Shown here one piece after another: positions 1,315 to 15,993 of a stretch of DNA of 64,000 nt. The stretch's first letter is position 1. Each line of letters begins with the position of its first letter. Made by a program: the position numbers and the translations under genes. The notes under the pieces were generated by a model. That model worked only from the letters and a program-made list of their open reading frames with translations. It searched no databases and was not told where the DNA came from. The stretch is from Sphingobacterium spiritivorum (GTDB lineage: Bacteria > Bacteroidota > Bacteroidia > Sphingobacteriales > Sphingobacteriaceae), in NCBI RefSeq assembly GCF_016725325.1, contig NZ_CP068083.1, positions 186,001 to 250,000 of the forward strand. Direction: 5' to 3'.

Positions 1315-2754
1315 TTATTGAGGTTTTGTATTCTTAATAGCCGGTCCAAAATCGTAGACAACTGTATTTTGCCAGGCTTTCCGCAACAAACTTGAACCTA
1401 TAGCAGACCGGTATCCGGAAGCACAATGAACTACAATAGGTTTATCCGTTTGAATTTCAGCGATACGCTTCCGCAAATCAGGCAAAGGGATATTGATCGC
1501 ATGCTTAAAAATACGGTTTTTACGGACTTCATTTTCGTTTCGGACATCAATAATGTAATAATTTTCCGGATGTGCGGTTACATCGTTTACCACGATGGAT
1601 GGAGGACCTTCCAGCTGACGGTCATACCGCAATGCCCCTGAAACCTGTCCCTCATACCCGATCTTGGCGATCTGCCGAAGTCTTTGCTGCAAACGATCTT
1701 CATTTTCAGCCAACAGATAAAACTGTTCACCAGGTAGTATAACTGTACCCAGCCAGGTTTCAAACTTACCTTCCCCCGGTATCAGGATAGCATTTTTAAC
1801 ATAAGATGAGGCCGTATATTTCTGAGGCCTTGTATCCAGAATCAACGTATCCTCCGGAAGTGCAGCATTAGCAGACAGTATTTTTATAGCTGACAAACGT
1901 TCCTCCAGATTCGAAGCCCCCTTCAGATTAAGATGCACATCAAATGTAAAGTATGCAGGGACAAACCCAAGATCTGCCAATATCCAGGAGACAAATTCTT
2001 CTTCGCTACGAATTTTAAAAGCCGGATTGTGGAGGCGTTCATGACCGATTGTACCGGATGTAGCATCACTGATGCCCGATGCGCACAACGATCCGGCTCC
2101 ATGTGCCGGATACAGATCAAGCTGATCATCCAAAGGAATCAGTTTGTTTTGAACCGTATGATACATATCCCGTGCAAGTTGCTCCCGGGCACTGTGCGGA
2201 TCTCCGTCTGTATCCCGCAAATCCGGCCGCCCCACATTTCCGAAAAGCAACGTGTCACCAGAGAACAGCGCCCTATCTTTTTTTTGATCGACCAGAACCA
2301 AAGAGATACTCTCAGGAGAATGTCCGGGAGTATCCAGCACACACAGATATACCTGGCTGTTTAAAGCGATACGATCACCTTCCCGCAAAGGCTTATGCGC
2401 AAACTGTGCCTTACATCCGTCACCTACATATACCGGAATCCGAAGGCGACGCTGCAACTCAGCATGTCCACTCACGAAATCTGCATGCGGGTGTGTTTCT
2501 ATAACAGCAATGATATGCAGGTTATTTGCTTCTGCAAAATCCACATAAGGTTGTATATCTCTCGCAGGATCTATCAGCAAAATAGATGTATCGTCATATA
2601 CGGCATAAGAAAATTGAGCCAGTCCTTCATCCGTAAACTGATGCACATGGTAGTTCTTATTTGCTTTACGTATTCCCGCAGCTATACTTCTTGCCGGGAA
2701 GCAGAACAGCCCAACTCCAAGAATGCCTGCTTTTACAAAACGTCTTCTATGCAT
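1315..2754 (-). CDS. Exported CstB-like persulfide dioxygenase with pseudo-rhodanese and rhodanese domains
   Basis: The protein has 479 residues from the chosen ATG. That ATG overlaps the stop of the upstream rhodanese gene (TGATG), and it is preferred over an upstream in-frame start at 2823 because it places a twin-arginine-like signal (HRRRFVKAG, then a hydrophobic stretch ending near residue 26) at the N-terminus. A metallo-beta-lactamase domain follows with THPHADF (His88, His90, Asp92), His145 (PGHS), Asp167 (FSGDTLLFGNVGRPDL) and His218 (YPAHGAGS). This is the signature set of ETHE1/persulfide dioxygenases. A middle rhodanese fold (about 305-375) lacks the active-site Cys. The C-terminal rhodanese has HCASGYRS (Cys444). 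The same three-domain order is known in Staphylococcus CstB, which oxidises persulfides and passes on thiosulfate/sulfite. Export to the periplasm is inferred and is unusual, since the known enzymes are cytosolic. Confidence 0.85.
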   Translation of the reverse strand: MHRRRFVKAGILGVGLFCFPARSIAAGIRKANKNYHVHQFTDEGLAQFSYAVYDDTSILLIDPARDIQPYVDFAEANNLHIIAVIETHPHADFVSGHAELQRRLRIPVYVGDGCKAQFAHKPLREGDRIALNSQVYLCVLDTPGHSPESISLVLVDQKKDRALFSGDTLLFGNVGRPDLRDTDGDPHSAREQLARDMYHTVQNKLIPLDDQLDLYPAHGAGSLCASGISDATSGTIGHERLHNPAFKIRSEEEFVSWILADLGFVPAYFTFDVHLNLKGASNLEERLSAIKILSANAALPEDTLILDTRPQKYTASSYVKNAILIPGEGKFETWLGTVILPGEQFYLLAENEDRLQQRLRQIAKIGYEGQVSGALRYDRQLEGPPSIVVNDVTAHPENYYIIDVRNENEVRKNRIFKHAINIPLPDLRKRIAEIQTDKPIVVHCASGYRSAIGSSLLRKAWQNTVVYDFGPAIKNTKPQ

Positions 2755-3188
2755 CAGTGATCTCCTTTCCCTTTCGTACTTTCCGGTGTATCCTTCTTCA
2801 GATGATATCCCTTTTCTTCCCATTCCTTTATTCCTCCGCTGAGATTGATGACTTCCTTAAATCCCAGACTGATCAACCGGTCCGCAGCCTGACGGCTTCT
2901 GTTTCCGCTTCTGCAGTACAGGTATACAGGCCGGTCTTTCTCCAGCTTTTGTATCCCTTGTTCAAAAGCAGTGCTATCTTTCCAGTTTAACAAAATTGAT
3001 CCCGCAATAGCGCCTTCTTTATATTCAGCAGGAGTGCGTACATCAATAAGCTGAATTGCACTGTCGGCAAGTAATGCCGCTTTAAAATGTTCCGCATCCC
3101 GGTTTCCATTTTGCTGTGCATGTACTGAATATGGGATAAGCAGCCAGAGAAAGAATAACCCGGCAGCATATATCCGTCTAATTATCAT
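2754..3188 (-). CDS. Exported single-domain rhodanese
   Basis: From the ATG at 3188 the product has 144 residues. It begins MIIRRIYAAG with a hydrophobic core and a cleavage-like VHA-QQ, i.e. a Sec signal peptide. In-frame ATGs at 3197 and 3209 are alternatives and would only lengthen the n-region. The mature part is one rhodanese domain with the persulfide-forming loop CRSGNRS (Cys92) and the usual DVRTPAEY and GGIKEWE landmarks. Such domains carry sulfane sulfur on the active Cys. The start lies inside the end of the upstream DoxX gene (11-base overlap) and the stop overlaps the start of the CstB-like gene, so translation is probably coupled. It is a plausible periplasmic sulfur donor to the neighbouring dioxygenase, which is inference from order and co-export. 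Confidence 0.85.
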   Translation of the reverse strand: MIIRRIYAAGLFFLWLLIPYSVHAQQNGNRDAEHFKAALLADSAIQLIDVRTPAEYKEGAIAGSILLNWKDSTAFEQGIQKLEKDRPVYLYCRSGNRSRQAADRLISLGFKEVINLSGGIKEWEEKGYHLKKDTPESTKGKGDH

Positions 3189-4656
3189 GTTGTCCATAGC
3201 TGTAAACATTATTATGCGTATACCATCCTTTTCCTATGGGATGCTGTTCCTTTTGTCTGGTCAAAACCACACGTAGAGAATCTTTATCATTAATCTTACC
3301 GGCTAATCTGATACCTCCGTCCGGTAATCTGTCATACTGCCAGCGTAGAATATGCAGACTGTCCCTCCATGCGGTCTGATATTTTGCTTTCAAATCCATA
3401 CGTATATCACTGCGTTCCCGCACCAGTTCTTTTGCGAACTTTTGGTTTTTGTCTACCAGATACAAGTAATTGGCCGTGCTGTCTATTTCATAATAGAGAT
3501 ACCGCTTACCTCCTGCCCTGCCGGTAAATTCATAATCCTTAAAGAGATCTGTAGCTTTAGGAGTACCGTTATCCAGATTAATAGGATATGCCTTATTGAC
3601 CGTATAGACCAAAGTAGAATACCGCTCGAAAACAGCATCATGCCAGCGTACAGAATCCAACGGATCATAAGGCAGTATTTTTCCATTAAGATCAAAACTT
3701 GAAATGTGATAATATCCTGCAGCATCTGCCAGTCCCGGCACTATCGGTTCCTTTAGTTTGCCCTCATTGTAATGCATTTCATAACGCTTATATCCGTAGT
3801 AAAAAAGAAACAACAGAATAAACAGATACTTACTTCCTGTATAAAATAACCTGCGTCCGGCAGTATCCCATTGAGGCGTATAATAATGGGGCTGAAAATC
3901 CTGCCTTTTGATAAACACCTGCCATATGCCCGGAATATATTGCAACAACACAAACAGCGAAAGAACAACAAAATACCCGCTGTACAGATGCACAGCTCCG
4001 TCATAAGCCAGATTTGCGTGTGCTATATTATACAGCACACCGGCATTAATAATGGCACCCAATGCAGTCGTTCTTCTGAAAAACATTAATACTCCGGCTC
4101 CAATCTCCAGAAAGCCCAGAAATATCTGATACCACAGCGAAAGTCCTACTGCCTGCCAGTATAATTTGAATGGAGCATAATCGCCAAATGCAGTATGCAG
4201 ATTGGCTTCCGAAGGAAAGGGCATCTGCATCGGATATAATTTCAGATATCCAAAAGCTATAATTCCGATTGCAATACGGTAACGGGCCAGCACGCGCAGC
4301 CAGTAGTATCCTTTCGAAATAGGAAAAGGTGCAGACTTACGGGTTAACCAGGCCCAAAGGTAAGCCCCCGCAATTGCAATCAAAGCCGTAAGTCCCCATG
4401 AAGTAAAAGAGAGGAGTCCCCATTTGCCGCTCTCTCCAGATATCTCGATCAGCCCCGGACGAAATCCGGCTACAGATGACAGAACCTCATAGAAAGATTT
4501 GCTTTTGAACAAGTGGGCATACCATTCATATTTTACAGGAATAATAAAGAGCAGAATAAATATAAAGAAGAATCGGAAGATAATATTTCTACCCGAATCC
4601 CATCGGTCTATGGACGTTTTCACATATCCCTGTTCGATAATAGCGCTTTGTGTCAT
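3178..4656 (-). CDS. DoxX-like multi-pass membrane protein with C-terminal soluble domain (paralogue 2)
   Basis: This 492-residue protein has about seven hydrophobic segments in its first 300 residues, the first near 25-42. The core includes YRIAIGIIAFGYLKLYPMQ, LHTAFGDYAPFKLYW and GFLEIGAGVLMFFRRTTALGA, which look like the four-helix DoxX/DoxD fold. About 190 polar residues follow (from GLADAAGYYHISSFDLNG), probably extracytoplasmic. The 443-residue neighbour shares both halves (YGDF-type loop, FRRTTA/FRKTTA, GLADAAGYYxxSxFxLNG), so the two are tandem paralogues. DoxD in archaea is part of thiosulfate:quinone oxidoreductase, but the DoxX superfamily is broad, so membrane redox of a sulfur compound is a hypothesis that rests on the rhodanese and persulfide dioxygenase genes next door. 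Confidence 0.75.
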   Translation of the reverse strand: MTQSAIIEQGYVKTSIDRWDSGRNIIFRFFFIFILLFIIPVKYEWYAHLFKSKSFYEVLSSVAGFRPGLIEISGESGKWGLLSFTSWGLTALIAIAGAYLWAWLTRKSAPFPISKGYYWLRVLARYRIAIGIIAFGYLKLYPMQMPFPSEANLHTAFGDYAPFKLYWQAVGLSLWYQIFLGFLEIGAGVLMFFRRTTALGAIINAGVLYNIAHANLAYDGAVHLYSGYFVVLSLFVLLQYIPGIWQVFIKRQDFQPHYYTPQWDTAGRRLFYTGSKYLFILLFLFYYGYKRYEMHYNEGKLKEPIVPGLADAAGYYHISSFDLNGKILPYDPLDSVRWHDAVFERYSTLVYTVNKAYPINLDNGTPKATDLFKDYEFTGRAGGKRYLYYEIDSTANYLYLVDKNQKFAKELVRERSDIRMDLKAKYQTAWRDSLHILRWQYDRLPDGGIRLAGKINDKDSLRVVLTRQKEQHPIGKGWYTHNNVYSYGQHDN

Positions 4657-4661
4657 AGCTG

Positions 4662-5993
4662 TTAATAGATTTTTATAGGATGACGACGACCCTTATAGAG
4701 TAAATATTCTTTTGGAGTGCGTTGCAAGGTAATTCGGAGAGAATCCTGAGAAGCAGACACACCGGACAGAATGAGCTGATCCTTTCCGTGTCGCTCCACC
4801 TGAAAGACATACCGATCATCTTTCACAATCTTATTCTGTAATTCAATACGACGCCCCCCATCTCTGATTTCGTATCGGTAAAAATGACGTCCACCGTTAC
4901 CCAGGTGTTCGAAATTGCGTAAACTATCAGGCTGATAAACAATTTTGGGACGCAGACTATCTATGACTGCCGGATTATTGTTGCGGACACTCAGCGTATT
5001 CCAGTTTTCAAACACCACATTTCTCCATCGCTTATCATTATCTAAAGAATAGACTATTGTATCTCCGTTCAGAACAAAATGACTGACATTATAATAGCCT
5101 GCAGCATCTGCCAGTCCTGTCTCTTCGGGATAAGGATAGCGCTCATAAGACCATATCCGGTATATACCTCCTGTCAATACCAGAGCAAACACAAGCACAG
5201 CTATTTTCAACCCGCTCCTATACTTCTGAACCCGGGCACTGTATACGGGTTCAAAAGTATCTGCAACTGTATATTTTTCCTGAAAAAGCAAGGTGTAAAG
5301 TCTGGGAAGATCGTACCATAAAATAGCAAAGGACAACAACAGTAAAAAAGAGCTATAGACTTGCTCCCCTATTCCGTATGCGTAATTTGCCAATACAATA
5401 TTAAGCAACAGACAAAGCGCTATTGCAGCACCTATAGCGGTCGTTTTTCTGAACAATAACAAAACTGCCGCAACAATTTCCACCAGACCCAGTGCAGGTA
5501 CATATCCCGCAGAGCTGACAGATGTACTCAGAAAATATATTTTCCAGGGTAAAAAGTCACCATAATCTGTATGCAGATCACTCAGAGTGGGCAGTGGCAG
5601 CAAAACCGGAAACAACTTAACAATACCCGTAGCCAATAAAGCTATGGCCAACCGATACCGTAACAAGACCCTTAATATATAATACAAGCGATCTGAAGCT
5701 ACTTCCCGTTTATACAGAATCTGCACGAATACCGCACCAGCCAACGCAACCGCAAGCGCAATTATCCAGTTAAGATAGCCCTCCAGTTGAAGTCCGACAT
5801 GCTGATCTTCCGAGAAGAACGAAGTATGATATGTAGCGAGTTGATAAAAACTCTCAATGCTCAGTAACTTACGGCTTATGTCCGCAAAGAGTACCGGATT
5901 GAAGGGAATACTCAACAGGCCAAAAAATATAAAGGCTGCAAACAGAGCAAAGACCTGGCCTTTGCTCCATGAATCATGTTGTGATTTACTCAT
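4662..5993 (-). CDS. DoxX-like multi-pass membrane protein with C-terminal soluble domain (paralogue 1)
   Basis: The 443-residue protein starts at ATG 5993, 11 bases after the SusD stop, and ends 5 bases before its paralogue. After a hydrophobic N-terminal helix (about 15-38) comes a DoxX-like helical bundle containing YRLAIALLATGIVKLFPVLL, LHTDYGDFLPWKIYF and GLVEIVAAVLLLFRKTTAIGA, then further helices to about residue 285. The last 150 residues form a soluble domain beginning GLADAAGYYNVSHFVLNG, which is repeated in the next gene. Tandem duplication with moderate divergence suggests the pair works as a heteromeric membrane complex. No metal- or quinone-binding residue can be assigned from the sequence alone. 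The role in the sulfur operon is inferred from neighbours. Confidence 0.75.
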   Translation of the reverse strand: MSKSQHDSWSKGQVFALFAAFIFFGLLSIPFNPVLFADISRKLLSIESFYQLATYHTSFFSEDQHVGLQLEGYLNWIIALAVALAGAVFVQILYKREVASDRLYYILRVLLRYRLAIALLATGIVKLFPVLLPLPTLSDLHTDYGDFLPWKIYFLSTSVSSAGYVPALGLVEIVAAVLLLFRKTTAIGAAIALCLLLNIVLANYAYGIGEQVYSSFLLLLSFAILWYDLPRLYTLLFQEKYTVADTFEPVYSARVQKYRSGLKIAVLVFALVLTGGIYRIWSYERYPYPEETGLADAAGYYNVSHFVLNGDTIVYSLDNDKRWRNVVFENWNTLSVRNNNPAVIDSLRPKIVYQPDSLRNFEHLGNGGRHFYRYEIRDGGRRIELQNKIVKDDRYVFQVERHGKDQLILSGVSASQDSLRITLQRTPKEYLLYKGRRHPIKIY

Positions 5994-6004
5994 CCTGACA
6001 ACGA

Positions 6005-7369
6005 CTATTCATATCCGGGATTCTGTACAAGATCTGCATCGACTTCCACATCATTGTATGGGATAGGAAATATCCACTTCCGCTGATCCGTAACACCTAA
6101 TACCGTCGATGCACGACCTGTCCGAACCAGGTCAAACCAACGCTGAGGTTCGAGTACAAACTCTGCTCTCCGCTCCTGTTCAATATCAGTCAGCAGCGTT
6201 TCCTTGTTTGAAAGTACTTTGACACTGACATTCGCACGCCGGCGTACAGCATTCAGATCTGAAAGTGCGCCTTCCAGATTAGGAGTTGTACTTTTTGCAC
6301 GTGCTTCTGCCCGTATCAGATATTGTTCCGCTAACCGAAGTATATAAGTCGGATTATCTCCCGAGGAGCGCCAGTATAGCTTCTGAATAAAATAATTGCG
6401 TATGGTAGCCGTAGAATTGTCTGTAATCAATGCTTTACGGTCTCCTCCTACATTTGCCTGCTGTAAAAACTGATACACCTCAGGTCCTGGACCATACTGG
6501 TTGCGGTAACTGAGACTCGACCAGGAGCCGAAATGTGCACTTTGATCAGCCGCTGAAAAAGCCAGTTCAAAGACCGATTCCTTTGTATTAAGTCCGCTCA
6601 GAATAGTCTGCCAGGGCACCAGTTCATAATTCGTATTATCAATTACTTTTGTTGCATATTCAATTGCCTTATCCCAATTTTCCTGATACAGATACACCTT
6701 TGCTTTCAGCGCATAGACGGTATTCTTAGTGACGCGATTCCGGTCTACAGTGGCAGGCAAAAGAGTTTCTGCCTGATCCAGATCTTTCAATACCTGTGCA
6801 TATACCGTTTTTTGATCACTTTGTTTCACACCGCTGAAATCAGACGGAGATTTGGTCGCCTGCAATACGACCGGGATATTACCCCATGCTTTTGCCAGAT
6901 CAAAGAAGGCTAACGCACGCAGGAAATATGCCTCTCCTGTAAATTTATTTCTTGCATCTGCAGTAATAGATTCACCACTCAGGGCAGCTACTTTCTCAAT
7001 CACATTATTGGCACCATTCACGACCTTATATATATCGTACCATACATTATTAATCAAGGTATTATCTGGACGGTATTCGTGTACCGGAAAAGCATTGTAA
7101 TAATTGAGTGTTCCTACCCAGATATGATCACCACCGGAGAGATAGGCCATAGCTGCATAACCGTCACCACCATAATACAGGCGCGATTGCAAGGCACTGT
7201 AAACTCCCAAAACAGCCGTTTCTGCCGTATTTTGATCGACCACAATAGCATTGCCGGAAATAGATTGTGTGGGATCAACATTCAGAAAATAATCAGAGCA
7301 GCTACTAAATCCGGATAACAATGTCGTTCCCAGAAGCAGGTATATTATATATTGATATTGTGTTTTCAT
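6005..7369 (-). CDS. SusD/RagB-family outer-membrane lipoprotein
   Basis: The start at 7369 (MKTQYQYIIYLLLG) is chosen over an in-frame ATG at 7390 because it opens directly on a lipoprotein signal with the lipobox GFSSC. The product is 454 residues, in the family's usual 450-550 range. SusD hallmarks are FLNVDPTQS just after the lipid anchor, AYFLRALAFFDLAKAWGNIPVV in the TPR-like region, YLIRAEARAKS, and the C-terminal ERRAEFVLEPQRWFDLVRTGRA followed by IPYNDVEVDADLVQNPGY. SusD proteins sit on the cell surface as the lid of a SusC transporter and bind the nutrient. It follows SusC by 41 bases and precedes the DoxX pair, so the ligand imported here is more likely a small sulfur-containing nutrient than a typical polysaccharide; no glycoside hydrolase is present in the operon. 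Confidence 0.95.
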   Translation of the reverse strand: MKTQYQYIIYLLLGTTLLSGFSSCSDYFLNVDPTQSISGNAIVVDQNTAETAVLGVYSALQSRLYYGGDGYAAMAYLSGGDHIWVGTLNYYNAFPVHEYRPDNTLINNVWYDIYKVVNGANNVIEKVAALSGESITADARNKFTGEAYFLRALAFFDLAKAWGNIPVVLQATKSPSDFSGVKQSDQKTVYAQVLKDLDQAETLLPATVDRNRVTKNTVYALKAKVYLYQENWDKAIEYATKVIDNTNYELVPWQTILSGLNTKESVFELAFSAADQSAHFGSWSSLSYRNQYGPGPEVYQFLQQANVGGDRKALITDNSTATIRNYFIQKLYWRSSGDNPTYILRLAEQYLIRAEARAKSTTPNLEGALSDLNAVRRRANVSVKVLSNKETLLTDIEQERRAEFVLEPQRWFDLVRTGRASTVLGVTDQRKWIFPIPYNDVEVDADLVQNPGYE

Positions 7370-7410: not shown

Positions 7411-10400
7411 TTATAAAGTAAGATTGACGCCAAACTGATATACACGGGCATGTGGAGGCATAGAGAAATCCAGTCCTTGTACAGTCGCTCCAGCCTGACT
7501 TTGTGCTACATTTACCTCCGGATCAGGTCCGCTGTAACCTGTAAACGTCAGGAGATTCGTAGCATTGAAATATAATCCCAGCTTTTTGATAACAGTTTGC
7601 TTTCCAAGCAGAGCAGTCGGAAAAGTATAGCCTATATTGATATATTTCAACCGGATAAAGGAAGCATCTTCCAGAAAGCGGCTGCTTTCATAATTATGAT
7701 TGTAACTTCCGTCTGGATTTTGCAACGTTGTAATACGCGGAATATCCGTCACATCACCCGGTTCCTGCCAACTGCGAAGCATGCTTGACAACATGGACCA
7801 GGAAGTCCCTCTGCTCCCTGCGTGTTCCTGAAAATAACGGTTCATGTTAAACACCTTATTTCCCTGAGAAAAGTAGAAGTTAAATGCAAATGAAAAATTC
7901 TTATAGCTCAGCTGATTGGTCAGGCTTCCGTAAAAGGCTGGCCAGGCGTCCCCTACGATCTGACGGTCATCTACCGTAATTTTTCCGTCACCGGTACGGG
8001 AGTCATCGTATACCGCATTTCCAGTCTGTGTATCTACATACAATTGTTTATACAGCCAGAATGAATACAATGGATATCCCTCTTCTATCCGTACCCAGTC
8101 TCTGTTATATTGGGTAAAAGATTTGGATAATTTCTCAACCTTATTTTTGTTGTGTGAGATATTGAATGTAGTATTCCATTGAAAATGATCATTGGTAATA
8201 TTCAGGGTCTTCAGTTCAATTTCAAATCCCTTATTACTGATTTCTCCGAAATTCTGGTAAGAAGAGCTGAACCCTGTCTTTGCCGGAGTCGGCACTTCCA
8301 GCAGCAGATCTTTGGTATATTTATTATAAAGATCCACATTCAGACTTACACGTCTGTCAAACAAAGAAGTTTCCAGTCCTACATTCCACTGCCGGGTAGT
8401 TTCCCATTTCAGATTTTCATTACCAAGCTGTGTAGGCGCTACTCCTGGTTTATCCAGATAGTTGTTACCGCCAGTCCAGAGCAGCTGAGAGGAGAAGTCC
8501 GGAATACCCTGATTACCGGTCCATCCGATACTACCTTTCAACTGTAACGTATTGACAAATGAAAGATTCTGACGTAAAAAATCCTCTTTCGCTATATTCC
8601 ATGCTGCACCCACAGAAGGAAATGTCGCCCAGCGATTATTAGCTCCGAATCTGGAAGATGCATCTGTACGTACATTCGCATCTAAGCTATACCGATCTTT
8701 GAATGTATAGTTGACACCTCCAAAATAGGAGATCAGCCCGTTATATAATCTTCCTGTGGCAGAAGCCGTAGTCACCGCTGCTGAAGATATAGTTGTAAAC
8801 TGCGTACTTGGATAATTGGTTCCTGTCAGCGAGGCACGGCTTATAAACCCACGTTGTAATGTATTTCCCAGGAAAACAGAAAGAAAGTGTTCTTTATCGG
8901 ATAACGGAATATAATTCAGCAACTGTTCTGCTACCCATGTTGTTTCAGTCGAAAGCACATCGCGTCCGCTTCCGTTAGTAGCCAGCCCCTGATTAAGATT
9001 CGCATTGTAATAGATGACTTCATTGTAAGAATTATCATCCAGACTGAAAGACGATTTAAAACTCAGGTTTTTAAGAATATTCCATTTTGCAAATACATTA
9101 CCGATCAGGTGTTTGCCATACGCATGACTATTGCTATTTTCCAGCAATACGTACGGATTATTGAATCGTTCTCCTCTGTTGTAAGTTCCGTCAGCATTAA
9201 ATAATGGTGTCAAAGTGGGTGTATGCAAACCGGTGTTAGTAATACCTCCGGTATCCCCTGTCGGTACAGTCTCACGTTCAGTACTGCTGTAGGCTATACT
9301 TGTTCCTATAGAAAGAGCCGAACTGATCTGATGATCCAGGTTGGTACGGAAGGAAAGACGGTTAAAATCCTGCAACTTGAGGATAGATGGCTGTTTAGTA
9401 AATTCTCCGCTCAGAAAGAAAGAAGTCTTCTCTCCTCCACCAGCTACAGATAGGTTGTGCGTAGTCTGTACCGGATCACGAAAAATAAGACTCAACCTGT
9501 CAAAAGTACCCTGATCCTCCGGATTACCGGCTCCGCCTTCACTCAGCGGGCGGTAAGGGCGTGTTTCATAACTCTTCCCATCATTGATCCACTGCTGATT
9601 CAGAATGGAAGCATGCTCCGGTCCTGTTACCAGGCTCCACACCTTAGGCGTAGTGGCCTTGCCGATTACAGAGTTAAGATTGATACGGGTAGCTGCATTG
9701 CGTTTTCCTCTTTTTGTAGTGACAATAATAACTCCGTTTGCACCACGGGAGCCATACATAGCCGTAGCATTCGCATCTTTGAATACTTCAATAGATTCGA
9801 TATCTGCAGGATTGATATCGGCCAGAGGATTGATATTCTGCCCTCCTGCATTTACATTCTGCAGGGATCTGCTATTGATAAATACACCGTCAATAACGTA
9901 CAGCGGATCATTATTTGCATTGATAGAAGTTGCTCCGCGCAGCCTCACTAATGCCGAACCGCCCTCCACACCGGAAGCAGAAGCAATCTGCAAACCCGGA
10001 GCAAGCCCCTGTATCTTTTCACTTAGACTAACGCCTCCCTGAAATTCCAGAGCCTTGCCTTTAACCTCGGTGATTGCACCTGTTTCGGAAGAACGACGCT
10101 TTTGCGCATACCCGACAACAACGACCTCATCCAGTTGATCCTGATTTTGAGATAAGACAATAACTGCGGGTGAAGACCGAATCACTACTGTACGCTTAGT
10201 ATATCCGACTACACTGACAATCACAGTTGCAGGAAGTTTCTGACCTGTGACCAGTTTAAAATTTCCAAGTTCATCCGTCTGTACCTGATGCGTTACAGCC
10301 TCAAGCTGTACTGTAGCTCCCGGTATAGGATTGCGTGTCAGCGAATCAATCACCTTGCCGGCGATCGAAGCATTGATCAATGGAGTAGATTGACCATATG

Positions 10401-10476
10401 CAGTGACATGGATTCCACAAAGGAAAACCATGCAAAGAAGTGTACTAAAAACACGGTTTCTAGTATTATTTTTCAT
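7411..10476 (-). CDS. SusC/RagA-family TonB-dependent outer-membrane transporter, no STN domain
   Basis: The protein is 1021 residues with a Sec signal (ending HVTAYGQ), a carboxypeptidase-regulatory-like domain (about 38-110, GKVIDSLTRNPIPGATV), the SusC linker LDEVVVVGYAQKRRSSETGA, a TonB plug (about 125-245, with NNDPLYVIDGVFI and AMYGSRGANGVIIVTTKRG) and a long beta-barrel ending in RVYQFGVNLTL with the terminal hydrophobic residue expected for OMP assembly. Unlike the other three SusC proteins in this window it has no N-terminal STN domain, and no ECF sigma/FecR pair sits upstream. Control therefore cannot use the trans-envelope relay and may depend on the leader, which contains a Met/Cys leader peptide and a convergent RNA candidate. 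It heads the operon that runs to the left edge. Confidence 0.95.
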   Translation of the reverse strand: MKNNTRNRVFSTLLCMVFLCGIHVTAYGQSTPLINASIAGKVIDSLTRNPIPGATVQLEAVTHQVQTDELGNFKLVTGQKLPATVIVSVVGYTKRTVVIRSSPAVIVLSQNQDQLDEVVVVGYAQKRRSSETGAITEVKGKALEFQGGVSLSEKIQGLAPGLQIASASGVEGGSALVRLRGATSINANNDPLYVIDGVFINSRSLQNVNAGGQNINPLADINPADIESIEVFKDANATAMYGSRGANGVIIVTTKRGKRNAATRINLNSVIGKATTPKVWSLVTGPEHASILNQQWINDGKSYETRPYRPLSEGGAGNPEDQGTFDRLSLIFRDPVQTTHNLSVAGGGEKTSFFLSGEFTKQPSILKLQDFNRLSFRTNLDHQISSALSIGTSIAYSSTERETVPTGDTGGITNTGLHTPTLTPLFNADGTYNRGERFNNPYVLLENSNSHAYGKHLIGNVFAKWNILKNLSFKSSFSLDDNSYNEVIYYNANLNQGLATNGSGRDVLSTETTWVAEQLLNYIPLSDKEHFLSVFLGNTLQRGFISRASLTGTNYPSTQFTTISSAAVTTASATGRLYNGLISYFGGVNYTFKDRYSLDANVRTDASSRFGANNRWATFPSVGAAWNIAKEDFLRQNLSFVNTLQLKGSIGWTGNQGIPDFSSQLLWTGGNNYLDKPGVAPTQLGNENLKWETTRQWNVGLETSLFDRRVSLNVDLYNKYTKDLLLEVPTPAKTGFSSSYQNFGEISNKGFEIELKTLNITNDHFQWNTTFNISHNKNKVEKLSKSFTQYNRDWVRIEEGYPLYSFWLYKQLYVDTQTGNAVYDDSRTGDGKITVDDRQIVGDAWPAFYGSLTNQLSYKNFSFAFNFYFSQGNKVFNMNRYFQEHAGSRGTSWSMLSSMLRSWQEPGDVTDIPRITTLQNPDGSYNHNYESSRFLEDASFIRLKYINIGYTFPTALLGKQTVIKKLGLYFNATNLLTFTGYSGPDPEVNVAQSQAGATVQGLDFSMPPHARVYQFGVNLTL

Positions 10477-10487
10477 ATTTTTGATTG

Positions 10488-10587
10488 GTTTTAATATAAA
10501 ATTTCAATAACAAGCCACAACGCCAATTGAACACTTGTTGTTGATAGGAGACCATCAGGGAGGTAGTCAATACTTCCCTGTTTTTTT
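10488..10587 (+). ncRNA. Candidate cis-antisense sRNA opposite the susC leader (system A)
   Basis: On the plus strand a 10-11 bp stem (10505-10514 with 10534-10543, one U-G) is followed by a 10-bp stem (10556-10565 with 10571-10580, loop of 5, one G-U) and seven Ts at 10581-10587, a strong intrinsic terminator. Both G-U pairs would become A-C mismatches on the minus strand, so the RNA belongs to the plus strand, opposite the 5' leader of susC. A perfect -7 element TATTTTTG lies at 10476-10483; no good -33 box was found. The start is estimated from that -7 box. DonS-type antisense RNAs of Bacteroides use the same arrangement. Confidence 0.6.
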
Positions 10588-10646
10588 GAATATAGCTATC
10601 CAATGATGCCTCTGAAGACACCTTAGATCATGCCAGTAAACGATGG

Positions 10647-10673
10647 AAAAAATTAGTGCATTAACACATGCAC
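10647..10673 (-). terminator. Attenuator-like hairpin overlapping the leader-peptide Cys codons
   Basis: On the minus strand GTGCAT and ATGCAC pair perfectly (6 bp, 6-base loop) and are followed after two bases by a T6 run at 10652-10647. The stem contains the last Met and Cys codons and the stop of the leader peptide, so a ribosome there would block it. An upstream second copy of ATGTGCA could compete for the same 3' arm. The stem is short, so termination efficiency is uncertain. Confidence 0.4.
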
Positions 10674-10744
10674 ATCGGGCTGCACATTCGCAATACAGGG
10701 TTAAGGAATAACGTAGAGAATGAGGTAAAGGTTTGTGTTTTCAT
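10661..10744 (-). CDS. Met/Cys-rich leader peptide upstream of the sulfur SusCD operon
   Basis: An ATG at 10744 opens a 27-codon frame (MKTQTFTSFSTLF...) that ends M-C-S-P-M-C-M-C before a TAA at 10661. Six of the last eight residues are Met or Cys, and the frame has no other Cys. It lies 184 bases upstream of the susC ATG on the same strand. A -7-like box (TACCTTTA, 10754-10761) would place transcription initiation within a few bases of the ATG, giving a nearly leaderless message. The final Cys codons fall inside a small hairpin (10656-10661 with 10668-10673) followed by six Ts on the minus strand. This arrangement is that of an attenuator peptide reporting on cysteine/methionine charging. 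The peptide itself probably has no other function. Homology was not tested. Confidence 0.55.
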   Translation of the reverse strand: MKTQTFTSFSTLFLNPVLRMCSPMCMC

Positions 10745-10761: not shown

Positions 10762-11078
10762 AATTTTAATTCATTTTGCTGTGTCTTGAAATGTTACTGA
10801 ACACTGCAGGCTTGAACTACAGGAGGTCAGAAACACTGTTCAATATTTAAATAGTCATAATACAAGTACAAACATACAATAAAATCTACTAAATCAATAG
10901 ACTTTATTAATTATTTTTAATTAACCCTGTTTTCAGCGGTCTTTTGAGGACTTTTAGGGATTTGAAATTTTCTTGGAATAAGCTATATCCGACCTATATT
11001 CCTTTCAGATAAAAATCCGCTGTTAAAGAGCTTTTCACAGAAATAGCTGACTTTCCATTCCTAATTATTTCAAAATTA

Positions 11079-11154: not shown

Positions 11155-13503
11155 ATGTCCCTTCCCCTATCCAAACTACAAGTCAGATTTTTCAGATACA
11201 GTCTGCTTTGCTTGGTGATCTTTCAACTAAATCACACTTTTGCTCAAGCACAATCCATACAACTTCTTGTCCGGGATGAAAGTAATCGTCCGCTTCCGCA
11301 TGCCACAGTATACCTCAACAAAAAAGCCACAGGATCTACTGCCCGGGACGGCTCATTTAACATTCCTGTACAATCTTCCAATACACTTCAGCTGACCATC
11401 TCTTCGCTCGGATATCAAACTTATACAGGTATTTTACGCACAGATACACTTTCGAATCCTTTTATTGTCGTATTGAAAGACAGCAGATCACTCGATGAGG
11501 TAGTTGTCACTGCAGGTAGAAAAGCAGAAAGCATAGATGAAATACCATCTTCTGTATCTATTCTGACCCGTAAGGAAATAGAGACACAGATCAATATCAC
11601 GTCCAATTTAGCTTCTATACTTGGCAATACGATACCGGGATTGGGAACATCCAACAACAAATCAACTAATTCGGGACAGACTCTGCGGGGACGCGCAGTA
11701 TTGGTGCTGATTGACGGGATCCCTCAGTCTACTCCATTGATGAATGGCAGTCGCGATCTCCGAACCATAGATCCCAGTGTAATCGAGCGTATTGAAGTAA
11801 TCAAGGGGGCAACCTCTATATATGGTAACGGATCCGGTGGAGGTATCATTAATTACATCACCAAGAAGAACACTGATAATGTACCTTTCTCCGGACAGAC
11901 ATTCGCAGGAACGTCCTTCAATCCGGTACATCCGGGTCAGACGATGGGCTATCGCTTTGCACAAATGTTTTCAGGCAGGAGCAACAAATTCAGTTATACG
12001 GTAAGCGGATCTGCAGATTATACAGGCCTGCAACGGGATGGAAAAGGCCTTCCTATCGGACAGCAGGATGGTATGTCTAATTCTTATCAGTACAATGCTT
12101 TTATCAAACTGGGATACGACCTGGACAGTAATACTTCCATAAGTGCGTTCTACAATCTGTACAACAGTACACAACATACACGCTATATCAATCAGGCTGG
12201 TGTATACGGAGAATCTCCTGCCATCGGTGTGCGTGGAGAAGAACCCGGTGAAAATGCCGGCACTCCATACAACCACAATATTATGGTAAACCTGACAAAG
12301 CGTAATATTTTCGGGCACACACAACTGGATCTCAGCGGATATTACAATTCATTCAGCTCCATGAACAGATATGTACCTTCGGGAACAGCATGGTACGGAC
12401 CAGGACAGACAAAGATCAACTCCGAGAAAAAAGGAGTCCGAATTAATCTCAACACTCCTTTCCGTATCGGAAATATCCCGACAGAAGTAACATATGGACT
12501 GGATTTACTGAATGATGTCACAAATCAAAACCTGACAGATGGCAGAATTTATATTCCGGATATGAATATGGTTAACTTTGCACCATACGCGCAATTGAAA
12601 ATGGATGTACTGGAAAACCTGATTTTTAAAGGTGGGGTACGCTACGAAAATGCAACTGTCAAGATAAAAGATTTCAGTACTATTGCAACCGGGCCTGATG
12701 GTCAGGGAAGCATAGCTGTATCAGGAGGAAAGATTCCCTACAAAGCGACTATGTTTAATGCCGGCCTGCGCTATACGAAATATGACATTTTTAATCCTTT
12801 TGTGAGTTTCTCTCAGGGTTTTGCTATCAATGAACTCGGGCGTATACTCCGTCGTGCAAAAGCAAATACATTAGATCAGCTGGAGACAGACCCTATTATT
12901 ACCAATAACTATGAGGTAGGATTTTCAAGTCAGTATAACTGGCTTCATTTATCAGCGGCCTACTACATCAGTACATCCAAACTTGGAGTCAATCTGGTAG
13001 ATGTGGGTGGTTTTCTGATGGCACAACGTGAACCTGAAAATGTAAAAGGATATGAACTTGCTGCAGAAGCAAGGCTTTCACCGCAATGGACACTGGGAGC
13101 AAACTATGCTTTTGTAGAAGGGAAAGCCAAATTTGACGACGGACGCAAAGTATATCTCAACGGATCTCGTATAGCTCCTCCCAAAGCCACAGCTTATGTA
13201 TATTACAGACCGGCTTCACAATGGAATCTCCAACTATTTTGGGTACACACTGGTTCAAGAGACCGCTTTCCTCTCAATGACAAAGGAAAATATAACAACA
13301 GTGAAGGCCCGATCAAACCTGTAGACTTATTCAATCTGTCCGCAGCATACACGATCAATACCAAATGGAGTTTGGGTATGGGTGTAGAAAATCTTTTCAA
13401 CACGACTTATTACCCGACAGTCAGCCAATATCGCGCCATAGACGCCGAATATGCCAGAGGGAATGGTATGCAGGCAAATATTAATGTCCATTACAAATTT
13501 TAA
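11155..13503 (+). CDS. TonB-dependent receptor, siderophore/ferric type with carboxypeptidase-like N-domain
   Basis: The 782-residue protein has a signal peptide (hydrophobic stretch to about residue 33, ending AQAQ), a carboxypeptidase-regulatory-like domain (about 35-108, LPHATVYLNKKATGS), the linker LDEVVVTAGRKAESIDEIPSSVSIL, and a TonB plug to about 235 (RGRAVLVLIDGIPQ, ERIEVIKGATSIYGNGSGGGIINYITKK). A 22-strand-type barrel follows, ending MQANINVHYKF with a terminal Phe. Size and plug sequence fit ferric-siderophore receptors of the FecA/FhuE class rather than SusC. The stop is only two bases before the ATG of the PepSY protein, a common partner of siderophore receptors, which supports an iron role. 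The substrate cannot be named from sequence. Confidence 0.9.
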   Translation: MSLPLSKLQVRFFRYSLLCLVIFQLNHTFAQAQSIQLLVRDESNRPLPHATVYLNKKATGSTARDGSFNIPVQSSNTLQLTISSLGYQTYTGILRTDTLSNPFIVVLKDSRSLDEVVVTAGRKAESIDEIPSSVSILTRKEIETQINITSNLASILGNTIPGLGTSNNKSTNSGQTLRGRAVLVLIDGIPQSTPLMNGSRDLRTIDPSVIERIEVIKGATSIYGNGSGGGIINYITKKNTDNVPFSGQTFAGTSFNPVHPGQTMGYRFAQMFSGRSNKFSYTVSGSADYTGLQRDGKGLPIGQQDGMSNSYQYNAFIKLGYDLDSNTSISAFYNLYNSTQHTRYINQAGVYGESPAIGVRGEEPGENAGTPYNHNIMVNLTKRNIFGHTQLDLSGYYNSFSSMNRYVPSGTAWYGPGQTKINSEKKGVRINLNTPFRIGNIPTEVTYGLDLLNDVTNQNLTDGRIYIPDMNMVNFAPYAQLKMDVLENLIFKGGVRYENATVKIKDFSTIATGPDGQGSIAVSGGKIPYKATMFNAGLRYTKYDIFNPFVSFSQGFAINELGRILRRAKANTLDQLETDPIITNNYEVGFSSQYNWLHLSAAYYISTSKLGVNLVDVGGFLMAQREPENVKGYELAAEARLSPQWTLGANYAFVEGKAKFDDGRKVYLNGSRIAPPKATAYVYYRPASQWNLQLFWVHTGSRDRFPLNDKGKYNNSEGPIKPVDLFNLSAAYTINTKWSLGMGVENLFNTTYYPTVSQYRAIDAEYARGNGMQANINVHYKF

Positions 13504-13505
13504 TT

Positions 13506-14687
13506 ATGTTGCGTTCAGCAGTTCTGTGGATACATAAATGGATGGGAATTCTTAGTGGCATAGTGGTACTGTCTTTGGGTATTACCGGATGCCTCTATGT
13601 CTTTCAGGAAGAATTGAAACTGCTTTTCTATCCACAGAAATATTTCTTAGAAAAGAAACATAATGATGCACCTATGCCACTGAGCACGCTTATTGCCCAT
13701 GCTCAGGCGGCATTACCGCCGTCACACCGTATCACGCGTGCAGATCTCTATCCTGATCCGTCCCGTACCTGGGTATTCAGAGCATCCAAAACAAATGAAA
13801 ATGCATTTGGGCACTGGAATTATTACAGTTACTATGACCGTGTATTTGTGAATCCCTATACCGGAGCAGTCACAGCAGTAGAAGATTCGAAGAATGAATT
13901 CTTTCAGCTGGTTCTCCAAATGCACATGAATCTCTTACTGGGAAAAAAATATGGACATCCGATAGTTGGCTATTCTACCGCAGTATTTGTACTGTTGCTG
14001 ATCAGCGGACTCATCCTGTGGTGGCCGAAAAGATGGAAAGGAAAAACATTAAAACGCAGCATATGGATAGATCGGAAGGCCAAATGGAAAAGACTGAACT
14101 ATGATCTCCATAATGTACTTGGGTTTTACAGTCTTTTTATCGGACTCATAATAGGTATAACAGGATTGGTATTTGCATTTCCGGCGTTTGAGAAATCCTA
14201 TGTAAACTTTTTCAATCATCTGGGGAAGAATGAAATTAAACAGAATAAGCCAACTTATCCCCTTGTGTCCGGACCACAAGCCTCAGCAATGGATAAAGCA
14301 CTCCACTTTGCAATCAAAACATATCCAACCGCGGATATAATGTCTTTGCGTCTTCGTAATGAGGCAGACAAACCTGTGGACATACAGATCCGATTACAAA
14401 AAGATAAAACAAGCAGGTTCAAATGGTATTATTTTGATGCTGTGACAGCACAGATCGTCAATATAAAGAGTGATGACAATCTCTCGGGAGGAGAGAAACT
14501 GCGCTCCATGAATTATGATCTTCATGTGGGAAGCATAGGTGGTTTACCAACTAAAATTCTGGCCTTCTTTATTTCTCTGTTCTGCGCCACTTTACCTGTT
14601 ACAGGATATATTCTTTGGTGGCAGAAATCTTCCAAATCCAACAAAAAATCCAAACGCAAAACAACGAGACACAGACTACCTGCCTGA
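13506..14687 (+). CDS. PepSY-associated transmembrane protein (iron-uptake reductase type)
   Basis: The 393-residue protein has the four-helix layout of the PepSY_TM family. Helix 1 is about residues 8-30 (WIHKWMGILSGIVVLSLGITGC), helices 2 and 3 are about 150-175 and 205-230 (HNVLGFYSLFIGLIIGITG), and helix 4 is about 350-372 (ILAFFISLFCATLPVTGYILWW). Large periplasmic PepSY-like segments lie between helices 1-2 and 3-4. Conserved His residues near helix ends (HKWMG, QMHMNLLLGKKYGHPIVG, DLHNVLG, DLHVGSIGGLPTK) could bind heme or metal. Family members next to ferric-siderophore receptors are thought to reduce or release iron in the periplasm. It is the second gene of a two-gene operon and has a basic C-terminal tail (SNKKSKRKTTRHR). 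Confidence 0.9.
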   Translation: MLRSAVLWIHKWMGILSGIVVLSLGITGCLYVFQEELKLLFYPQKYFLEKKHNDAPMPLSTLIAHAQAALPPSHRITRADLYPDPSRTWVFRASKTNENAFGHWNYYSYYDRVFVNPYTGAVTAVEDSKNEFFQLVLQMHMNLLLGKKYGHPIVGYSTAVFVLLLISGLILWWPKRWKGKTLKRSIWIDRKAKWKRLNYDLHNVLGFYSLFIGLIIGITGLVFAFPAFEKSYVNFFNHLGKNEIKQNKPTYPLVSGPQASAMDKALHFAIKTYPTADIMSLRLRNEADKPVDIQIRLQKDKTSRFKWYYFDAVTAQIVNIKSDDNLSGGEKLRSMNYDLHVGSIGGLPTKILAFFISLFCATLPVTGYILWWQKSSKSNKKSKRKTTRHRLPA

Positions 14688-14689
14688 CA

Positions 14690-14827
14690 GTTAGCTAAGG
14701 TACGCGTGCGGTTGAGCCGGCTCAATGTTTCCCGTGATACACCCAGGTACTAAGCAAATAATGTTTTGGAGACCCGTTGGAATAATTTAGGATATTCAGA
14801 CAGTAAGAGATCATACTTTTCAGCAGC
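14690..14827 (-). pseudogene. Crp/Fnr-family regulator remnant (C-terminal end only)
   Basis: The minus strand reads AAEKYDLLLSEYPKLFQRV, then KTLFA, an in-frame stop (TAG), then YLGVSRETLSRLNRTRTLAN. This matches the C-terminal end of the intact Crp/Fnr protein encoded at 15460-15993 (RYERILKRSPRLFQEI, YIANYLRMSPETLSRLQKS) and the helix-turn-helix pattern of the family. Another stop lies a few codons upstream, and no cyclic-nucleotide-binding portion follows. The fragment abuts the end of the PepSY gene. It is a decayed regulator on the opposite strand; the parent gene was probably a divergent or downstream regulator of the iron operon, which is inference. Confidence 0.7.
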
Positions 14828-14830
14828 AAA

Positions 14831-15183
14831 TGTTTACTGTGGTTAAGAGAACTGTAAACAGAATAACGGATTTAAAAAAAGTCTCGTATCGTTATTCTTT
14901 CTACAAAATTCCGAATAGCTTTTCAAATCAACATGTGACCTATATCACAACTTTTAATTGCTCATTCCCCAAATTATTGACCATAAATTGAAAAAATCCA
15001 AAAATTTAGAGACAAACACACCAAAAAAAACTATAAACTACACAATAAACACAAAAAATATATTAAAAACAGAATAAAAAATCATCAAAAAATAAAAAAC
15101 AAAGGATTTTAAATTTAAAAACACATCAATTTTTATTAAAATCAATAAAAAATTCAAAATATCATTATTTTTTTGATGTAAAA
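14831..15183. other. AT-rich intergenic stretch
   Basis: No supportable gene is visible. The stretch from about 14990 is almost entirely A/T with poly-A runs on the plus strand, and no stable hairpin or open frame stands out. Confidence 0.5.
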
Positions 15184-15214
15184 TTTGCAATTTAAAATAT
15201 AATTACTACCTTTA
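15184..15214 (+). promoter_or_regulatory. Bacteroidota-type promoter for a short RNA
   Basis: TTTG at 15184-15187 is followed by exactly 19 bases and then TACCTTTA at 15207-15214, an almost perfect match to TTTG-N19-TAnnTTTG. No coding frame starts nearby; the predicted transcript runs straight into a terminator about 70 bases downstream. Confidence 0.65.
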
Positions 15215-15219
15215 CAGCT

Positions 15220-15290
15220 CCTCATATTACAATTTATAATTGGTTATTAAAAGGTTTTCATTCTCCCCCGTTTGAAAACCTTTTTATTTT
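15220..15290 (+). ncRNA. Candidate ~70-nt small RNA ending in a 12-bp terminator hairpin
   Basis: Downstream of a consensus promoter, a perfect 12-bp stem (15249-15260 with 15273-15284) encloses a C-rich loop containing CTCCCCC and is followed by TATTTT. The short transcript has no open frame. The loop could base-pair with G-rich targets. The next gene (Crp/Fnr) begins 170 bases after the terminator, so an alternative reading is an attenuated leader of that gene. No Rfam family was recognised. Confidence 0.55.
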
Positions 15291-15459
15291 CGAAATAAAA
15301 TAGCATATCCAGTTTAAAAAACACTAAAACACTAAAAAAAGAAATAGAATATATCCAACACACATTCATTTAAAACAAAAACTAAATCAAAATCTCATTT
15401 TTTAATCTAATTGGATACTTTTACGTTATAAATACTTACTATTTCCAGCACTTTGACAC

Positions 15460-15993
15460 ATGAAAGTAGATAACATAGCAAATAAACTAAAGAATGCTAA
15501 TCTGTTTGATAAGACTGTTATTCTCCGGCGTCATGAATTTCTCTGCTTAAAAGACGCTATTGACCAGCATATATACTGGATAGACAGTGGCGGTCTGCGT
15601 ATTTTTATGATGGATGGCGAAGAAGAGCGAAATATCAGATTTGGATATTCCGATAATTTAATTGTTTCATTAGATTCATTTTTATCGGGAAATCCGACCG
15701 ATTTCTATATTCAGGCCATCCGAAAAACCACAGTCAGAATAGCAAACAAATCATCTTTACAACAGTTTATACAATCTGCCCCGGATAACTTCATCCTGTG
15801 GAATCAGATATTGGAAGATTTGATATTACAACAGGTAGAACGGGAAAAGGATATTCTGATCAGTTCTCCGCGGGAGCGATACGAGCGTATATTAAAAAGA
15901 AGTCCCCGTTTATTTCAGGAGATTCCGAACAAGTACATTGCCAACTACCTGCGCATGAGTCCGGAAACATTATCCAGACTTCAGAAATCTTGA
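15460..15993 (+). CDS. Crp/Fnr-family transcriptional regulator
   Basis: The 177-residue protein has a divergent cyclic-nucleotide-binding-like beta-roll (about 15-105, with YWIDSGGLRIFMMDGEEERNI and SLDSFLSG) followed by a long helix and a C-terminal winged-helix part. The recognition region reads YIANYLRMSPETLSRLQKS, typical of the many Bacteroidota Crp/Fnr regulators. The FNR cysteine cluster is absent, so it is not an Fe-S oxygen sensor. The effector is unknown. It is 48 bases upstream of the DinB-like gene and may be co-transcribed. A related fragment lies at 14690-14827 on the other strand. At 177 residues it is slightly shorter than the usual 190-230. Confidence 0.85.
   Translation: MKVDNIANKLKNANLFDKTVILRRHEFLCLKDAIDQHIYWIDSGGLRIFMMDGEEERNIRFGYSDNLIVSLDSFLSGNPTDFYIQAIRKTTVRIANKSSLQQFIQSAPDNFILWNQILEDLILQQVEREKDILISSPRERYERILKRSPRLFQEIPNKYIANYLRMSPETLSRLQKS

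Follow-up and report, generated by a model that had tools for sequence, protein, structure and literature searches.

This locus raises the question of how a SusCD operon with an apparent sulfur role is controlled. SusCD systems are usually regarded as carbon-source uptake systems under sigma/anti-sigma or one-component control. The operon lies on the reverse strand of a 64,000-nucleotide stretch of the Sphingobacterium spiritivorum genome, referred to here as the window, and is preceded by a short reading frame that ends in methionine and cysteine codons.

The operon, its promoter and the leader reading frame

The susC homologue (7411..10476, -) encodes a TonB-dependent receptor with matches to the CarbopepD_reg_2 and Plug domains; the initial annotation had claimed that it lacks an STN domain, and the domain search agrees. 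The susD homologue (6005..7369, -) was likewise identified by a domain match. Two related multi-pass membrane proteins (3178..5993, -) are DoxX/MauE-like by inspection and recur in homologous operons; the pair has no match in Pfam or NCBIfam. Domain matches also identify a rhodanese (2754-3209, -) and a metallo-beta-lactamase/rhodanese fusion (1315-2823, -), and an FAD-dependent oxidoreductase is encoded beyond the window on the same strand. A 77% identical membrane protein occurs in 'Sphingobacteriaceae bacterium DW12', with further relatives in Sphingobacterium and Pedobacter. A divergent TonB receptor, a PepSY_TM protein (siderophore-type) and a Crp-like protein adjoin the operon (11155-15993, +).

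Two main kinds of homologous operon were seen: in one, SusCD is combined with a pair or triple of DoxX-like proteins, and in the other with between one and three arylsulfatases (Sulfatase domain, E < 1e-59). In several of them, a gene for a YeiH-type putative sulfate exporter comes next. These operons appear to serve a sulfur function because rhodaneses, arylsulfatases and YeiH-type exporters, read as gene content, point the same way.

Upstream of susC lies the ATG reading frame MKTQTFTSFSTLFLNPVLRMCSPMCMC (10661..10744, -), which runs from 10744 to 10661. It has 27 codons, a TAA stop 184 nt 5' of the susC ATG at 10476, and the C-terminal tail RMCSPMCMC; its position, length and Cys/Met tail are conserved in relatives. 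The initial annotation had correctly described a 27-codon Met/Cys-ending frame about 180 bases 5' of susC; the interval that it gave, 10647-10744, comprises the frame and the T6 run behind it.

The promoter appears to lie further upstream than originally supposed. A module conserved in homologues (10869..10901, -) consists of an operator-like inverted repeat, TCTATTGATTTAGTAGA, followed by a Bacteroidota -7 box, TATGTTTG (10876-10869); in the window it reads TCTATTGATTTAGTAGATTTTATTGTATGTTTG (10901-10869). The same arrangement, a TCTAY-N6-RTAGA inverted repeat and then a box resembling TANNTTTG or TATATTTG, precedes most of the homologous leaders, both in Sphingobacterium and in Pedobacter. 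Transcription is expected to start near 10862, about 120 nt 5' of the leader, the conserved -7 box lying about 130 nt 5' of the leader ATG. The 'near-consensus -7 box' named previously, TACCTTTA, stands 9 nt 5' of the ATG and recurs in the nearest relative (L014) alone; it is not the conserved promoter, whose box lies about 130 nt further upstream behind the inverted repeat. The inverted repeat is likely to be a regulator site. The genome contains one perfect copy of the promoter module; a regulon search with the inverted repeat in the same genome gave, besides its own site, one near match and two weak ones. The near match (L095) lies between peroxiredoxin and acyl-CoA dehydrogenase genes.

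The mechanism first proposed for this leader was attenuation at a hairpin and T6 run overlapping the last Cys codons. A terminator-like hairpin, GTGCATGTGTTAATGCAC then TAATTTTTT (10656..10673, -), is present and was detected by a terminator scan, but it is not conserved and its fold is ordinary. The nearest relative, L014, in which SusC is 99% identical, has TGATACAATAACTC instead; the hairpin is also lost in relatives with 95% identical SusC, L015 and L016 being further loci without it. Locally, the sequence does not fold better than its shuffles (z -0.74). This hairpin is probably incidental, and it is extremely unlikely that, together with the T6 run, it is the terminator of an attenuator as first proposed, since it is missing in the closest relatives.

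Conservation of the leader in relatives

The SusC protein of the window was searched in 94 congeneric genomes, and the upstream regions were then inspected. Relatives with 95-99% identical SusC have the leader MKTQTFTTLLPLLDLHVLRMHCSMCMC and similar ones. Related tails are kept where SusC is only 42-47% identical (RMRMCTC, RMRMCY, GRMCSCM, MRMCSCG, RMCS, SRMCC and others), and in most of these relatives the leader ORF starts about 190-260 nt 5' of susC. In other genera with the same kind of operon, the tails are RCCCC in Pedobacter and HCCCTC(SM) in Niabella. Within the genus, almost every SusC homologue is thus accompanied by a Met/Cys-tailed leader ORF, as are those of Pedobacter and Niabella.

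Short ATG ORFs with Met-Cys or Cys-Cys among their last eight residues were found in 19 of 33 representative homologous leader regions, compared with a mean of 2.2 and a maximum of 7 in 200 rounds of dinucleotide shuffling. Regions with at least two such pairs number 8, compared with 0.07 in the shuffles, and the reverse strand gives 3. A gene-free search was also performed in the 94 congeneric genomes, using only the 14-mer CGAATGCGAATGTG and, as a control, the reversed pattern; this gave 33 matches and 2 matches, respectively. Among 30 loci fetched from this search, 25 proved to be leaders with a length of about 32 codons, ending in RMRMC(x) before SusC/TonB receptors, the distance to the SusC or TonB receptor being 52-149 nt where readable. 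Judged by these comparisons, the leader ORF is beyond chance.

In total, 47 distinct leaders were compared. Length is 26-34 codons in 45 of them, and all three stop codons are used (TAA 30, TGA 9, TAG 8). Among the last ten residues the cysteine content is 19.6%, compared with 1.5% elsewhere, and cysteine is mostly located at codons -1 to -4 relative to the stop; part of the set was fetched by tail pattern, which biases these tail frequencies upwards and affects lengths and stops less. Outside the tail, the peptide body shows no conservation among the leaders compared. The initial annotation had as its main idea that a leader with Cys/Met codons controls a sulfur operon in Bacteroidota, and had named conservation of the ORF tail in homologues as a test of it; the 19 of 33 regions, the genome-wide tail search and the 47 leaders all show the tail to be kept, and this supports the idea. 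A cysteine-responsive leader peptide is, as far as comparative evidence goes, well supported in kind.

The tail also carries a feature that codon sensing does not account for. In 71 of 73 cases (e.g. in L099-L128), the Arg preceding Met is encoded by CGA. The figure is partly biased by the search pattern; Arg codons other than CGA are common elsewhere in the leaders. The CGA preference is a nucleotide-level constraint, which a pure codon-sensing model leaves unexplained. One interpretation is that the conserved CGAATGCGAATGTG functions as untranslated RNA or as DNA, perhaps as a protein or antisense target, and that the reading frame is a by-product. The near-invariant CGA codon agrees with this, as does retention of the tail in a few relatives where Cys has been lost (RMRMHA, RMRMRR, HRMRT); furthermore, the CGAATGCGAATGTG core can pair in many loci with GGCGUUGGCAC, the conserved loop of a hairpin nearer to susC that is described below. 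Such base pairing between leader tail and loop may occur but is weak (mean z -0.64 vs shuffles); leaders also exist without the loop element. In addition, ORF length, ATG and stop are conserved with all three stop codons in use, and the Cys runs of Pedobacter and Niabella are encoded by different nucleotide solutions. An untranslated element is therefore considered very unlikely.

An arrest peptide has a marginally better chance but is also improbable. Here the signal would be a free sulfur metabolite and not a shortage of Cys-tRNA, and the RMRMC end would arrest the ribosome close to the stop, much as TnaC does with Trp as its signal. The motif is short and lies directly before the stop, and conservation extends past Cys itself, as might be expected of such a peptide. 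Against this, in other lineages the motif is freely exchanged for CCCC or MCSPMCMC, the peptide body is without conservation, and the conserved Arg codon suggests selection on nucleotides and not on residues. A leader read through its cysteine codons remains the preferred interpretation.

Not all family members have a leader of this length; in some, no leader is visible or GGAGG is followed by no more than a three-codon Met-Cys ORF. Minimal leaders in other genera (L056, L058, L060, L061, L064 and L066) consist of a Shine-Dalgarno-like GGAGG and AUG-(AUG)-UGY-stop directly before the hairpin; the peptides of minimal leaders 5' of susC are MMC, MIC, MYC, MCC and MCNQR. The GGAGG is striking, as Shine-Dalgarno sequences are rarely used in Bacteroidota.

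The region behind the leader stop and a proposed mode of action

Behind the leader stop lies a tract rich in pyrimidines and poor in G, TGCACTAATTTTTTCC (10645..10660, -), which includes the T6 run mentioned above and is proposed, on set-level composition, to be a Rho-loading region. As a set, the 20 nt behind leader stops are pyrimidine-rich, with a C/G of 2.88 and 0.18 YC per nt (p < 2e-4 vs neighbouring sequence). This suggests Rho-dependent, tnaC-like attenuation. The compositional signal is weaker in the window than in its relatives, and the window tract is T-rich, not C-rich; this is where the Rho reading is weakest for the window locus. Between leader and susC, sense-strand U-tract terminators are almost absent (T-tract in 4 of 51 loci).

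What comparison finds to be conserved is the ORF, its length, tail and place, the operon type and the post-stop tract. Together with these, we infer a course of translation, stalling, Rho action and response in which the leader peptide probably reports the supply of cysteine, and perhaps methionine, to the susCD sulfur-scavenging operon. The mRNA would start at the promoter near 10869, and a ribosome would translate the leader of about 30 codons. When Cys-tRNA is plentiful, the ribosome would reach the stop and leave, exposing the pyrimidine-rich tract; Rho (in some relatives, a competing hairpin) would act on the exposed tract and few transcripts would extend into susC. When Cys-tRNA is short, the ribosome would stall at UGY codons, between one and a few codons short of the stop; the stalled ribosome would shield the tract, and transcription would go on into susCD. 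An antisense RNA opposite the susC leader, considered in the next section, would form a second and separate layer. A Rho tract shielded by the ribosome is favoured because the Cys codons end the ORF, the tract is pyrimidine-rich, a sense terminator is mostly missing and there is a precedent in mycobacterial leaders.

Attenuation of the trp type was weighed as an alternative. Here the post-stop sequence would pair with the 5' arm of a GGGAAG-type hairpin further downstream and act as an antiterminator; a ribosome at the stop would block this pairing, and the hairpin would terminate transcription towards susC. Strong pairing of this type is seen in a subgroup of loci (L022, -14.7 kcal/mol, z -4.4; L105, L111 and L007, z about -3 to -4), and a short sense-strand U-tract is present in L018, L022 and L023. 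The window and its close relatives do not have such pairing (z +0.1 to +0.8), however, and the hairpin is without a sense-strand U-tract in nearly all loci, being followed by one in only the 4 of 51 noted above. As a general explanation the trp type is therefore rather unlikely; a trp-like switch is possible in the subgroup formed by L022, L105, L111 and L007, but not in the group of the window. The trp, his and ilv attenuators, like the present leader, place regulatory codons in a short leader peptide; they differ in that here there is no conserved sense-strand intrinsic terminator and the regulatory codons are at the extreme end of the leader.

To our knowledge, few descriptions exist from Bacteroidota of leader peptides that sense amino acids. 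In the literature searched, in which coverage of subscription journals was mostly lacking, no description of cysteine leaders in this phylum was found. The closest known leaders are those of Actinobacteria. Cysteine-run leaders precede actinobacterial cys operons (Canestrari et al. 2020, as cited in PMC9094748 and PMC13236596). In mycobacterial cys operons, Cys-run leaders are accompanied by pyrimidine tracts and no hairpins, and tna-like Rho termination has been proposed (PMC1262725). The leaders described here share with them a short ORF before a sulfur operon, Cys codons near the stop, a pyrimidine tract behind the ORF and the absence of a conserved sense-strand terminator hairpin. They belong to another phylum; no sequence relation is expected, and the two are likened by features alone. 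The mycobacterial runs are mainly Cys, whereas Sphingobacterium tails are Met-Cys or Arg-Met-Cys; the mycobacterial target is cysteine biosynthesis, whereas here it is an outer-membrane SusCD uptake system. Translation of the mycobacterial type is leaderless, whereas the leader of the window would, by prediction, have a 5' UTR of about 120 nt; an antisense RNA may also overlap.

The likeness to E. coli tnaC lies in a ribosome held at the leader end, which would mask a Rho-loading tract after the stop. TnaC arrests as a nascent chain when it senses free Trp; in the present case the stall is proposed to result from a lack of Cys-tRNA, and the involvement of Rho is predicted. Within Bacteroidota, leader-peptide attenuation has been inferred before amino-acid biosynthesis operons of Flavobacterium psychrophilum (PMC9723704); unlike the present case, the main text of that paper mentions neither a cysteine leader nor a SusC target. 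The kind of leader, with its cysteine codons and actinobacterial precedent, is thus known; the phylum and the kind of target are new, and so is a possible antisense RNA beside it. If the proposed mechanism is true, a subset of SusCD systems, those with sulfatase or sulfur-transferase genes, would be run by sulfur need and not by carbon need. The RMRMC leader and its 14-mer also provide a sequence handle for finding such SusCD systems and predicting their members.

Hairpins before susC and a predicted antisense RNA

Nearly all loci contain two further elements between leader and susC: the GGGAAG-type hairpin and a loop hairpin. The first is often GGGAAG...CTTCCC, and its window copy is at 10556-10580. 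On the susC strand at least six A are found within the 10 nt before the hairpin core in 32 of 51 loci, and a T-tract of at least six T after the core is limited to the 4 of 51 already mentioned. On the susC strand the A-tract lies 5' of the hairpin; the U-tract is therefore part of an opposite-strand transcript, and for this reason the hairpin was rejected as a susC-strand terminator. In the window, the terminator scan identifies CAGGGAGGTAGTCAATACTTCCCTG TTTTTTTG, with a T7 run (10556..10588, +), as the intrinsic terminator of a proposed antisense RNA.

The second element (10509..10539) has the stem AACAAGT/GCTTGTT and a near-invariant loop with AATTGGCGTTG (- strand). Its stem is variable, with 5-9 bp, and in most loci it lies 46-51 nt 5' of the susC start. 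The stem covaries: 13 cells show compensatory changes on both sides, compared with 3.7 after shuffling, and slid controls are lower. A covariance model finds a single match in its own genome (E 1.6e-5) and, with a cut-off of E <= 0.5, matches in 30 of 121 family genomes, the weakest matches being probably chance; in the rest of the class nothing convincing was found (2 of 247, including the own genome). Copies of the loop element are found across Sphingobacteriaceae 5' of SusCD operons that include DoxX-like proteins or sulfatases. In three Pedobacter loci (L006, L008 and L009), the loop is inverted within intact stem arms, reading GCAACGCCAATC and not GATTGGCGTTGC. Two other interpretations of the loop were rejected. 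Firstly, it could encode a second leader peptide (NWRWHL in one frame); many loci have no start codon, in some the frame enters susC, and in the three Pedobacter loci it is inverted. Secondly, a repeat element was dropped as an interpretation because each genome has a single copy.

A -7 box for the opposite strand, TATTTTTG (10476..10483, +), overlaps the susC start codon, and a box resembling CATANNTTTG is present in many homologues; the A-rich context of the start codon could partly account for it. The U-tract of the opposite strand, the covarying UUGGCG-loop hairpin and this -7 box are the reasons for reading the element as a DonS-like antisense RNA; the predicted transcript, of about 100 nt (about 10489-10588, +), lies opposite the susC leader and looks like a member of that type. 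DonS RNAs are cis-antisense RNAs of Bacteroides PULs, 78-128 nt in length (Cao et al. 2016, as cited in PMC7366714). By description, DonS and the predicted RNA are both small and divergent to a susC homologue, and the one predicted here would have its own terminator; unlike DonS, it would have a covarying UUGGCG-loop hairpin, precedes sulfur operons and is found in Sphingobacteriaceae. Rfam gave nothing at the gathering threshold, only chance-level matches at E<5 and no DonS-like match.

The loop UUGGCG may resemble the loop of plasmid antisense systems. The loop hairpin is proposed to be a kissing hairpin common to the susC mRNA and the antisense RNA; covarying stems together with an inverted loop are tolerated by such a sense/antisense pair. 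The loop could alternatively be a transcription-factor site, which stem covariation and loop inversion suit less well. Five leaders before TonB receptors are without the loop element; therefore leader and antisense element are separate modules. As a tentative model, less likely than not, the two could form a Bacteroidota-specific, two-layer RNA switch for sulfur scavenging, in which the loop of the antisense RNA would kiss its mRNA twin, and the ribosome on the Cys leader would decide on escape from both Rho and the antisense RNA. The conserved hairpin of antisense type would also offer an RNA partner that can be tested by experiment.

Two loci (L076 and L077) have the loop hairpin between FecR-like and STN-type SusC genes with no Cys leader, the matches being weak (E 0.14 and 0.17). 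In L007, two tandem SusCD/DoxX-like operons contain three copies of the loop hairpin, one of which would fall at the extreme 5' end of the predicted transcript.
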